64,000 nt of DNA from Catenulispora acidiphila DSM 44928 (lineage in GTDB: Bacteria; Actinomycetota; Actinomycetes; Streptomycetales; Catenulisporaceae): positions 2,666,001 through 2,730,000 of the forward strand of contig NC_013131.1 of the NCBI RefSeq assembly GCF_000024025.1, written 5' to 3'. Positions 47,468 to 50,410 of the stretch are shown one piece after another (the first letter of the stretch is position 1; every line of letters begins with the position of its first letter). Under the pieces are notes generated by a model. That model did not search any database, was not told where the DNA came from, and saw only the letters and a list, made by a program, of their open reading frames with translations. A program made the position numbers and the translations under genes.

Positions 47468-48400
47468 TCAGACACGCCAATCGGCGTCGAAGGCGCGCGC
47501 CGGATTGCGGCGGAAGAACGCGCCGGCGACTTCGGGCCCGAAGTCCCGCTGCACGCGAGCCCTGATATCGGTGAGCAGGAACGGGATGCCCGGTCCGCCG
47601 CCGCTCGCGGCTCGGGCCGCCGCGCTCGTGGTGTCGCCGCCGAGCAGGACGTGGTCGGCGTGCCCGGACTCGACGAGGGAACCCAGCAGGTCGAACAGGT
47701 GCCAGTCGGTCGCGTGGTTGGCGCGGGACGGGCCGTCGAAGCCGAGGAAGGCTCCTGCTTCGGCGGCCTCGCGGTGCGGTCCGGGATCGGGGAATCGGTT
47801 CAGGTGGCCCAGAATCACCGATCCGGCGGGGACGCCGAGCCGGTCGTGCAGGGTCCTCAGCACGCCGAGGGGATGAGTGCCGCCTTCCAGATGGACGGCG
47901 ACGGCCGACCCCGTGGCGTGGTGCGCGGCGGCGGCTGCTTCGAAGACCACTGAGGCGTGCCGATCCACCTGGTGGAAGTCCCCGGCCACCTTGATCAGCC
48001 CGGCGCGCGGCGGCAGCGGCGGTCCGTCCGGCTCCTCATCACCTCGCAGCCCTTCGCCGAGTTCTGCGATGAACCGTTCAGCGAGCCCGTCGAGCAGCCG
48101 TGGAAGTTTCTCGGGCGAGTAGTGCACCGCCTGATGCAACCCGGTGGCCGCGATGATGTGCACCCCGGCCGCCTCCGACAGCGCCGGCAGTTCCTCCGCA
48201 CGCCGTCCCAACCCTATCGGCGTCCACTGCGCCAGCGCCTGTCCGCCGGCTGCCGCGAACGCCCGCAGCTCGGCCTCGGCCGCCGCCGGGTCGTCGAGTT
48301 CCTGGCCGGGCAGCTTGGTCGAGGCGAAGAACAGGTGGTCGTGGGAATCGGTGACGCCCAGCGTGTCCGCCGCGATGTCGCCCAGGACCGTGCGGATCAC
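47468..48400 (-). CDS. Phosphotriesterase-family hydrolase (putative lactonase)
   Basis: A 310-residue amidohydrolase-like protein. The metal-binding pattern of phosphotriesterases is visible: DSHDHLFF (HxH, about residues 17-24), GLIKVAG with the bridging Lys (about 127-133), HLEGGTH, LGHLNRF with a metal His, and a late LLGGDTT with the catalytic Asp (about 258-264). Many such enzymes are lactonases rather than phosphotriesterases. The GTG start overlaps the stop of the upstream CMD gene (GTGA), so the two are made together, with CMD first. Confidence 0.75.
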   Translation of the reverse strand: MIRTVLGDIAADTLGVTDSHDHLFFASTKLPGQELDDPAAAEAELRAFAAAGGQALAQWTPIGLGRRAEELPALSEAAGVHIIAATGLHQAVHYSPEKLPRLLDGLAERFIAELGEGLRGDEEPDGPPLPPRAGLIKVAGDFHQVDRHASVVFEAAAAAHHATGSAVAVHLEGGTHPLGVLRTLHDRLGVPAGSVILGHLNRFPDPGPHREAAEAGAFLGFDGPSRANHATDWHLFDLLGSLVESGHADHVLLGGDTTSAAARAASGGGPGIPFLLTDIRARVQRDFGPEVAGAFFRRNPARAFDADWRV

Positions 48401-48789
48401 TTGTCCGCCGCTTCGAACGCTGCCGCAGCCGCCCGCAGCCCCGCCAGCGCCTTCGGCACGCCGACATACGGCGCCAGATGTACGAAGACCTCCACGATCT
48501 CCTCCCGGCTCATGCCGATCCGCTCGCTGGTCTTCACATGCCCGACCAGCTGGGGCTCCACGCCGCCCAGCGCCGTCAGGGCGGCCAGGTTGACGATCTG
48601 CCGCTCCCGCAGGGTCAGCGCGGGGCGCTGGTACGTGCCGCCGAACAGCGCCGTCACGATCCAGTCCGTGAAGCCCGGCGCCAGCTTCTCCACGCCGGGC
48701 AGGGCGGCGTTCTGCGTCGCCTCGTCCTGGAGCACGTCCAGCAGGGCGTAGCCGGCCTCGCGGTCGAGGGTGGCTGCTTCGAAGTCCAT
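48397..48789 (-). CDS. Carboxymuconolactone decarboxylase-family protein
   Basis: A 130-residue protein with the CMD fold text LTLRERQIVNLAALTALGG (about residues 59-77), HVKTSERIGMSREEIVEVF (about 84-102) and HLAPYVGVPKAL. It lacks the CxxC of AhpD, so it is closer to true carboxymuconolactone decarboxylases than to alkylhydroperoxidases. The ATG has GGGAGG 4 nt upstream. Paired with a lactonase-like gene, which suggests a lactone-degrading step, and divergent from a CGNR regulator. Confidence 0.78.
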   Translation of the reverse strand: MDFEAATLDREAGYALLDVLQDEATQNAALPGVEKLAPGFTDWIVTALFGGTYQRPALTLRERQIVNLAALTALGGVEPQLVGHVKTSERIGMSREEIVEVFVHLAPYVGVPKALAGLRAAAAAFEAADK

Positions 48790-48808: not shown

Positions 48809-48864
48809 GTAACGCCTCAAGCGTTACTTGAGCACGCTAGCAGATGTAACGGTGAGACCGTTAC
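48809..48864. promoter_or_regulatory. Twin GTAACG-N7-CGTTAC operators
   Basis: Two copies of the same dyad lie in the 85-bp divergent region: GTAACG/CGTTAC at 48809-48827 and at 48846-48864, each with a 7-bp spacer and 37 bp centre to centre. The second is part of a perfect 9-bp inverted repeat (TGTAACGGT and ACCGTTACA around GAG) and overlaps TACACT (48862-48867), the -10 of the CGNR gene. The first lies just upstream of the CMD gene. Confidence 0.75.
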
Positions 48865-48874
48865 ACTGATCCGC

Positions 48875-49450
48875 ATGGACCCCGCCCCCTTCCGCCTCGA
48901 CACCGGCGCGACGTGGCTGAACCTGCTCGCCACCCGGGGCAGCGCGTTCGGCCGCCATCCGGAGGAGCGCATCCCCACCCCGGAGCGCTTCGCCGAATGG
49001 CTGGCCGCCGTGGAACTGGCTCCGCAGACCCCGACACCGGTCACCGCCGAGGATCTGGACCTCGCGCGCCACCTGCGCGAAACGCTGCGTCCGCTGGCCC
49101 TGTCCGCCGCCACCGGCGAGGATCCGCACCAGGAGGCCGCAGGGGAGCTGATCGCCTTCCTGGCGGCCCACGACGAGCCTCTGCGCGTGGTCGCCGCGGC
49201 AGGCGTGCCGGGCTTGGACCGCCCCGCCCCGCAGGACGCCGCCGCCGCCCTCGGCCGGATCGCCCGCCAGGCCGCCGAACACCTCACCGGACCCGAGCGC
49301 CACGCGCTGAAGTCCTGCCCGGAGTCCGACTGCCGGGGCGTCTTCGCCGATCCGGACGGCCGCCGCCGCTGGTGTCCGTCCCCGGCGTGCGCGAGCCGGG
49401 GCAGGGTGCGGGCGCACCGGGCCCGCAAAGCGGCGGTCACAGCCGACTGA
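48875..49450 (+). CDS. CGNR zinc-finger/ABATE-domain transcriptional regulator
   Basis: A 191-residue protein with an N-terminal ABATE (putative stress-sensing) domain (about 1-140) and a C-terminal zinc finger CPESDCRGVF ... WCPSPACASRGRVRAHRAR (about 150-186), where CASR stands in the position of the family's CGNR. The four cysteines are in place. The ATG at 48875 follows TACACT by 7 nt, so the mRNA is probably leaderless. It most likely regulates itself and the divergent CMD-lactonase pair through the twin operators. Confidence 0.82.
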   Translation: MDPAPFRLDTGATWLNLLATRGSAFGRHPEERIPTPERFAEWLAAVELAPQTPTPVTAEDLDLARHLRETLRPLALSAATGEDPHQEAAGELIAFLAAHDEPLRVVAAAGVPGLDRPAPQDAAAALGRIARQAAEHLTGPERHALKSCPESDCRGVFADPDGRRRWCPSPACASRGRVRAHRARKAAVTAD

Positions 49451-49561: not shown

Positions 49562-50410
49562 ATGGGCGCCTACGTGGACGTCGACGGCTTGAACATGTAC
49601 TACGAGGTCGCCGGAGAGGGCGAACCGGTGATCCTTCTCCACGGCACCGGCGGGATCGCCGACATCTGGCGCCCGCAGCTGGACCTGCTCGCCGACTGGT
49701 ACCAGGTCTTCACCCCCGAATGCCGCGGCCACGGCCGGACCGCGGACGTCGAGGGCCCGTTCAGCTACGAGAACTTCGCCGACGACCTCGCCGGCTTCAT
49801 CGAGGCGCTCGGCCTCGGACCGGTGCGGCTGGTCGGCTGGAGCAACGGCGCCGCCGTGGTCCTGCGCCTGGCGCTGCGCCGTCCGGACCTGGTGCGCCGG
49901 CTGGTCCTCATCGGCGGCACGGCGGGTCCCGAGGGCGAGACCGCGCTGGCCGCGCAGTTGGGGGAGGAGCCCGGCCGGACGCTGCTGGCCGACGCCTGGA
50001 AGCCGGTCTACCAAGCCCTGTCCCCGGACGGCCCAGAGCATTTCGCGGTCGTCGAGGAGAAGCTGCACCAGATGTGGCGCGAGGGGACGTCGGTCGGGAT
50101 GGACGAGATCGCCGCGCTTCCGATGCCGCTGCTGGTCATGCAGGGCGACGACGACAGCGTCGAGATCGCGCACAGCGCGGCGCTGGCCGGGACGGCGCGC
50201 GACGGCCGCCTGGCGGTGGTCCCGGGGACCTCGCACGCGGCGCCGCTGGAGAAGCCGGAGCTGGTGAACCTGATCCTGCTGGACTTCTTCGAGGACAAGC
50301 CCGCCGAGCGGATCTTCCCGCTGGGCTCGCTGCGCTCGGCGGCTGGGCTGGGGGACCATGGCGGCCCGACCTCGGGCGGACGGCCCGGGTTCCTTCCGTG
50401 GGCGGCCTGA
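49562..50410 (+). CDS. Alpha/beta-fold hydrolase
   Basis: A 282-residue hydrolase with the oxyanion-hole text LLHGTGG (about residues 25-31), nucleophile elbow GWSNGA (Ser near 98), the acid in MQGDDDSV (about 197-204) and the catalytic His in GTSHAAP (about 224-230). Substrate unknown. GAGGGGAG lies about 6 nt upstream of the ATG. The final 30 residues are Gly/Pro-rich and not part of the fold. Confidence 0.82.
   Translation: MGAYVDVDGLNMYYEVAGEGEPVILLHGTGGIADIWRPQLDLLADWYQVFTPECRGHGRTADVEGPFSYENFADDLAGFIEALGLGPVRLVGWSNGAAVVLRLALRRPDLVRRLVLIGGTAGPEGETALAAQLGEEPGRTLLADAWKPVYQALSPDGPEHFAVVEEKLHQMWREGTSVGMDEIAALPMPLLVMQGDDDSVEIAHSAALAGTARDGRLAVVPGTSHAAPLEKPELVNLILLDFFEDKPAERIFPLGSLRSAAGLGDHGGPTSGGRPGFLPWAA

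Follow-up and report, generated by a model that had tools for sequence, protein, structure and literature searches.

Organization of the locus

The stretch of Catenulispora acidiphila DSM 44928 analysed here (hereafter the window; 64,000 nucleotides) carries a gene for a CGNR/ABATE regulator divergent from a CMD–PTE gene pair, and two copies of the inverted repeat GTAACG-N7-CGTTAC lie between them. The features, in order of position, are:

47468–48400, minus strand: PTE-family metal hydrolase (PF02126), the constant cassette enzyme
48397–48789, minus strand: CMD-family protein (PF02627), an optional cassette member
48809–48827, no strand: distal dyad, GTAACG-CCTCAAG-CGTTAC, at the predicted CMD–PTE transcript start; kept in orthologs
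48834–48842, minus strand: predicted extended -10 of the CMD–PTE operon, TGCTAGCGT
48846–48864, no strand: proximal dyad, GTAACG-GTGAGAC-CGTTAC, overlapping the predicted CGNR -10 and the expected CMD -35 zone
48862–48867, plus strand: predicted CGNR -10, TACACT
48875–49450, plus strand: CGNR/ABATE regulator, 191 aa, probably leaderless
49562–50410, plus strand: alpha/beta hydrolase downstream of CGNR, of doubtful cassette membership

The PTE GTG start overlaps the CMD stop codon (GTGA; by eye). The initial annotation had placed two exact dyads here, 37 bp apart, and both coordinates and exactness were verified. Its placement of one copy over the CGNR -10 and of the other just before the divergent CMD gene also holds: the right arm of the second copy makes TACACT, 7 nt before the ATG at 48875, and 19 bp separate the first copy from the CMD ATG (48787–48789).

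Across the whole 10,467,782-base genome (one contig), the exact pattern occurs in two places, both being the window pair, and the reversed pattern has no exact match in this genome or in nine other genomes of the genus. Allowing one mismatch yields five places in the genome, the window pair included, versus seven for the reversed control, so that inexact dyads elsewhere in the genome are background. Within the window, two matches are unremarkable at a tolerance of two mismatches, since at least two were found in 19 of 100 shuffles; such window-only statistics are not decisive, and whole-genome and cross-genome tests were used instead.

The dyads accompany the regulator across genomes

The regulator protein was searched in 391 genomes of the order. 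Intact orthologs were found in 18 genomes, comprising the window's own and 17 others at 54–86% identity, with the next matches at 42% identity or less. The dyad stands directly upstream of the regulator in all 18, and 17 of them possess two dyads spaced 28–40 bp, the remaining locus (L077) having a single one. Among the 373 genomes that lack an ortholog, a single dyad occurs in 11 and two dyads in none (Fisher p 7e-24 for any dyad and 8e-29 for two dyads, kinship ignored). Conservation near orthologous CGNR genes in related genomes, which the initial annotation had proposed to look for, is thus borne out.

Of the 37 exact dyads in the ortholog-bearing genomes, 35 are located at the cassette; the two exceptions are single sites in genomes G300 and G301. 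None of the 11 single dyads in ortholog-less genomes is positioned immediately upstream of CGNR or close to a CMD or PTE gene; that of L377 is found about 1.2 kb beyond the downstream end of a CGNR gene. The reversed pattern is present in 48 of the 391 genomes and in none of the 18; together with the 11 genomes above, this indicates that single exact dyads also arise by chance. A CGNR fragment without dyads (residues 112–188; locus L053, contig C62 of genome G305) looks like a deletion or a misassembly. By eye, it runs into apparent PTE sequence, and its genome is listed as 77% complete. With CMD as the query against 296 genomes of the phylum, besides the window's own protein only distant paralogs were recovered, the next best at 43% identity.

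Starting from the motif, we scanned 84,980 species genomes for dyad pairs separated by 5–35 bp, which returned 81 stretches, 80 of them listed. The CGNR plus CMD–PTE cassette accounts for 62 of the 80, and for 57 of these the ortholog lies within 400 bp of the dyads. In two more the regulator gene extends past the end of the retrieved sequence (in L125 its start can be read; L188 is identical in sequence to L075), and three (L141, L171 and L177) have twin dyads with CMD and/or PTE and no adjacent regulator. Two further stretches (L174 and L187) belong to a second CGNR subfamily in Kutzneria, as does the 81st (L190, Kutzneria sp. CA-103260). The other 16 are unrelated, five being Rhizobiales-type loci and 11 metagenome-assembled stretches with recurring GTAACG/CGTTAC (7 to 28 half-sites each). 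At least 11 genomes were found by both the protein-side and the motif-side approach, which therefore overlap.

The 62 cassettes span 21 actinobacterial genera, including Streptomyces, Nocardia, Actinomadura, Nonomuraea, Pseudonocardia, Microbispora, Streptacidiphilus and Actinokineospora. Leaving aside ORFs that overlap the cassette genes, the ORF cluster with the broadest distribution occurs in eight of the 62 loci (stretches cut at 8 kb). The cassette is mobile and patchily distributed.

The Rhizobiales-type loci carry twin GTAACGA-N5-TCGTTAC-like dyads 26 bp apart (L111, 2882–2926; L122, 1456–1500; L126, 4904–4948; L137, 2308–2352; L159, 4508–4552), a look-alike operator unrelated to CGNR; in L111 and L159 the dyads precede, by eye, a small RHH-like antitoxin gene and a GNAT-like toxin gene. 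Many GTAACG/CGTTAC repeats occur in the metagenome-assembled stretches L143, L170, L182, L152 and L157, with nine dyads in L182. Tandem Repeats Finder identified a 25-bp array in L157 and no array in L114.

In two genomes, the regulator and the operon have come apart. In Nocardia aurantia (L171, genome G678) and Streptomyces orinoci (L177, genome G679), twin dyads precede CMD–PTE or PTE with the regulator not adjacent, and a CGNR ortholog is encoded elsewhere in each genome (56% and 60% identity, respectively). In the former it shares the operon's contig, at a distance of about 8.7 kb from the dyads there; in the latter it is on a different contig. Each separated CGNR gene has one exact dyad directly upstream and each operon retains two; no further exact dyad occurs in either genome. 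Because each partner keeps its dyads when apart, the dyad is tied to the regulator itself and, separately, to the operon.

In the cassette, PTE is the constant enzyme and CMD is dispensable: of the 59 loci where either enzyme was matched, PTE is present in 56 and CMD in 46, and in 13 PTE stands directly at the dyads with CMD absent. At the three PTE-less loci (L117, L128 and L178), the available sequence on that side stops no more than about 420 bp from the dyads. The alpha/beta hydrolase at 49562–50410 is doubtful as a part of the system; at twin-dyad loci it was matched in place only in the Catenulispora records L135, L136 and L178, and a fourth Catenulispora record, L156, has no alpha/beta hydrolase match downstream of CGNR.

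Predicted promoters within and between the dyads

Promoter layout was compared in 65 orthologs, 62 with two dyads and three with one. Protein searches supplied 20 of these, and the remaining 45 were picked up by the dyad pattern alone; dyad presence in the latter is therefore by construction, which does not apply to their -10 and start-codon results. In all 65, the proximal dyad is followed by NNT, which completes the hexamer TACNNT with its final T outside the dyad, and in 63 the first in-frame start codon comes 6–7 nt past this hexamer. This layout suggests that the -10 lies inside the operator and that the mRNA probably begins at the start codon. Thus, the regulator-side dyad probably carries CGNR's own predicted -10, and the CGNR mRNA would be leaderless and originate inside its own operator.

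On the other strand, TGNTANNNT is present between the dyads in 38 of the 62 twin-dyad orthologs, and the CMD -10 is recognisable only there. This element is likely the extended -10 of the CMD–PTE operon; its position in the window, 48834–48842, would have the operon's transcript begin at the margin of the distal dyad.

Among the 62 twin-dyad orthologs, all spacings from 26 through 42 bp are represented, as well as 46 and 47, so the two sites are probably bound independently. Across the 65 orthologs (45 by construction) the arms are invariant and the 7 bp between them vary. With the inner 7 bp varying and the spacing ranging over 26–47 bp, the identity of the arms is not a mere lack of divergence.

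The regulator and the enzymes

The window CGNR protein matches both the ABATE domain (PF07336, 71.8 bits versus a cut-off of 24.4) and the zf-CGNR domain (PF11706, 43.6 bits versus 24). Both domains are matched in all 49 aligned members, the window protein included, and the four zinc cysteines C148, C153, C167 and C172 are invariant in the 49 sequences. The signature in the last helix reads CASR in the window protein rather than CGNR; excerpts of the report on the ABATE/CGNR structure 3h0n give CQNR for that protein (PMC2954205), and the literal motif would hence not be required. Between 1 and 11 CGNR matches were counted per genome in 17 genomes, with 10 in the window's own.

At an E value of 0.001, no PDB chain matches the window CGNR protein by sequence. 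An AlphaFold2 model built from the 49 sequences has a mean pLDDT of 91, and in a Foldseek search its sole match with E below 0.001 is 3h0n (E 6.5e-5, TM 0.60/0.62, 184 columns, rmsd 4.5). In the excerpted report, the authors of this structure (Jann_2411) describe a dimer with a large cavity and a zinc finger that is likely DNA-binding; they left the ligand unidentified and proposed a stress role (PMC2954205). Four other sources, as excerpted, merely name a CGNR protein or domain (PMC2954198, PMC9976334, PMC3485107 and PMC4260502). The full-text literature, in which subscription papers are mostly outside coverage, gave no operator, target or ligand for any CGNR/ABATE protein; with that coverage, this negative is not proof of novelty. 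The initial annotation had held that few CGNR binding sites are defined: the scarcity stands, and "few" understates it, no defined operator having been found in this literature.

In the PTE protein the metal site (HxH, Lys, His, His, Asp) is kept: K138, H171, H200 and D257 are invariant and H21 and H23 at least 93% conserved in 50 sequences, all of which we take to be the metal-site residues. The protein matches three NCBIfam models, in each case with a score far short of the cut-off. Against the phospho-furanose lactonase model NF045706 it scores 92.5 bits versus a curated cut-off of 630 and is on this account not a member of that equivalog. Its nearest solved chain is 3pnz, which we take to be a phospho-furanose lactonase. 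The CMD protein scores 60.7 bits against PcaC (TIGR02425), below the curated cut-off of 155.7. A lactone as the signal, as the initial annotation had suggested from this enzyme pair, is plausible, these comparisons speaking neither for nor against it.

Dyads upstream of other CGNR subfamilies

A family survey covered 239 CGNR genes in 16 clusters of at least four members and asked for an exact 6-bp upstream inverted repeat in at least 70% of members. Eight clusters pass, versus two in the coding control; in the other eight no such repeat is conserved, one of these (cluster 2) having a looser dyad. GTAACG-N7 accounts for cluster 0, with 65 of 65 members (45 picked only by the dyad pattern), and for cluster 12, with 5 of 5 (three picked by the pattern). 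Upstream of cluster 4, GGAACC-N9-GGTTCC is invariant in 9 of 9 (L008, L065, L073, L074, L226, L233, L244, L245 and L349). Cluster 8, from the Streptomyces order, has GTTACC-N17-GGTAAC upstream in 5 of 6 (L320, L326, L327, L335 and L344), and cluster 11, from Catenulispora, TCACGG-N16-CCGTGA in 4 of 5 (L070, L071, L072 and L280, the last with two copies). The cluster 3 repeat was dropped as it lies inside coding sequence, and clusters 10 and 14, which pass in the coding control too, were not counted. CTAATGG-N16-CCATTAG or CTGACGG-N16-CCGTCAG stands upstream of CGNR in L209, L211, L212, L214 and L219 and in L216, L218 and L220; the members being few and closely related, these dyads are weak evidence. 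A common CCRTYAS half-site with spacers one helical turn apart was considered and withdrawn, because clusters 2, 4 and 8 do not fit it.

The second subfamily noted above (L174, L187, L190 and L201–L205) is 28–32% identical to the window CGNR, and its three named members are Kutzneria. Here, twin GTAACG-N7-CGTTAC dyads 38 bp apart are divergent to an alpha/beta hydrolase instead of CMD–PTE. Five members were found by protein search, three of them being genomes also found by the motif; L202 has both dyads exact, and L203 has one exact copy plus one whose first base differs. In all five, by eye, the right arm forms TACNNT and a GTG follows 6–7 nt later.

The exact GTAACG-N7-CGTTAC pattern is absent upstream of all 169 other CGNR genes. 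That CGNR paralogs are devoid of GTAAC-type dyads proved wrong: GTAAC-N5..12-GTTAC is found upstream of 13 of the 169, seven of them in cluster 2, compared to none in coding and reversed controls and a mean of 0.18, at most 1, in shuffles. Cluster 2 (Streptomyces order, 13 members) is 35–39% identical to the window CGNR among the matches listed. GTAAC-N11-GTTAC encloses TTATANT in seven of its members (L085–L088 and L091–L093), and GGTTAC directly precedes an in-frame start codon in 12 (the others being L090, L094, L095, L307 and L308). Here too, the dyad encloses a -10-like hexamer, 6 nt ahead of the start. In the window genome's paralog L005, GGTTAC likewise abuts an in-frame start codon. 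Overall, GGTTAC abuts the start in 13 of the 169 genes, versus one in total for eight hand-picked comparison hexamers.

Three subfamilies, namely the window's group, the Kutzneria group and the GTAACC-type group of the Streptomyces order, fit a scheme with the predicted -10 inside the dyad. We lean towards the view that CGNR/ABATE proteins, as a class, are one-component switches which read dyads and in many cases autoregulate by occupying the -10 of a leaderless gene, their own. With seven clusters showing no repeat, two passing only as the coding control does and one dropped, this family-wide rule is a strong lead, not a result. If true, the half-site would identify the targets, and thereby the signals, of a large uncharacterised family of actinobacterial regulators.

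A model for the operator pair

Taken together, a model for the dyad pair emerges. The dyads, their conservation, their strict tie to the regulator, their position on predicted promoters and the dyad that accompanies a displaced regulator are read from the sequence itself. Kept letter for letter beside the regulator and the hydrolase genes it faces, the dyads are very probably CGNR's DNA switch. The proposal of the initial annotation that they constitute an operator of the CGNR regulator finds strong support in the comparison of genomes with and without the ortholog and in the two displaced regulators. We infer direct binding, one dimer per dyad, repression over activation, and the ligand, the evidence for repression being the overlap with the predicted promoters.

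In the model, one regulator dimer would bind each GTAACG-N7-CGTTAC. The dimer at the proximal site would cover CGNR's own -10, leading to autorepression, and also the upstream part of the divergent CMD–PTE promoter, while the dimer at the distal site would sit over the point where CMD transcription is predicted to begin. The DNA would be released, and the CMD–PTE operon switched on, when the ABATE domain binds a small molecule, which is probably related to the PTE substrate or product. We consider this whole explanation, a dedicated CGNR/ABATE operator pair with autorepression and ligand relief, to be probable.

On the same operator, CGNR could instead activate CMD–PTE, the bound dimer recruiting RNA polymerase, and repress itself at the proximal dyad. 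An activator could act from the proximal dyad, given its position upstream of the predicted CMD -10, and by eye there is no clear CMD -35; the distal dyad, on or after the predicted CMD start, would be in an unusual place for an activator, and the dyad spacing shows no phasing, with all lengths between 26 and 42 bp represented. We regard activation as unlikely.

Still less probable is a different DNA-binding protein reading the dyads, with the CGNR gene merely one of its targets. Direct CGNR binding is our reading, palindromes of this size suit many dimeric regulators, and the GTAACGA-N5-TCGTTAC pair precedes an unrelated antitoxin-like gene in Rhizobiales-type loci. Against this, the presence of twin dyads coincides with that of the CGNR ortholog, also when the latter is displaced, and around the patchy cassette no outside ORF cluster exceeds eight of the 62 loci. 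Each inverted repeat could also pair as RNA and act as an attenuator or terminator hairpin rather than as a protein site, which we hold to be very improbable: the arms are invariant in 65 orthologs (45 by construction) without compensatory change, the loops vary, and the proximal dyad, overlapping the predicted CGNR -10, would not be transcribed toward CGNR. A palindrome pair by chance can be dismissed: near-matches at two mismatches are not rare in DNA of the window's size, but genome-wide uniqueness, conservation in 18 genomes, the contrast across the 391 genomes, the twin-dyad scan and the displaced regulators exclude it.

Under the operator-pair model, the cassette offers a minimal test system, with one regulator, a 6-bp half-site, one or two target enzymes and 62 natural variants, including the two genomes in which regulator and target are apart. 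It makes DNA reading by the CGNR zinc finger and sensing by the ABATE fold directly testable.

Comparison with known systems

The PTE protein shares family, by sequence, and metal-site residues with the PTE family, and falls outside the phospho-furanose lactonases of NF045706. With the 4-carboxymuconolactone decarboxylase PcaC, the CMD protein shares the CMD domain, whereas its score lies below the cut-off and the gene is absent from 13 of 59 cassettes. The regulator has both domains, the four cysteines and the whole-length fold in common with Jann_2411. For that protein the structure is known without DNA; in the present case, the sequence defines an operator together with its target operon and promoter arrangement.

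Local one-component repressors with a divergent target are familiar from TetR/LacI-type circuits. The features in common are dimer-type palindromes in a divergent intergenic region that overlap the regulator's own predicted promoter; as in an autoregulated circuit, conserved dyads lie in the shared intergenic region over the CGNR promoter, which is assigned by consensus only. In contrast to TetR/LacI-type regulators, the DNA here would be read by a treble-clef zinc finger, with a separate fold as the sensor, and the operator contains the predicted -10 of a probably leaderless gene. The type of circuit is thus ordinary; its new parts are a defined, if predicted, operator for the CGNR family and a putative -10 within the operator of a probably leaderless regulator gene.
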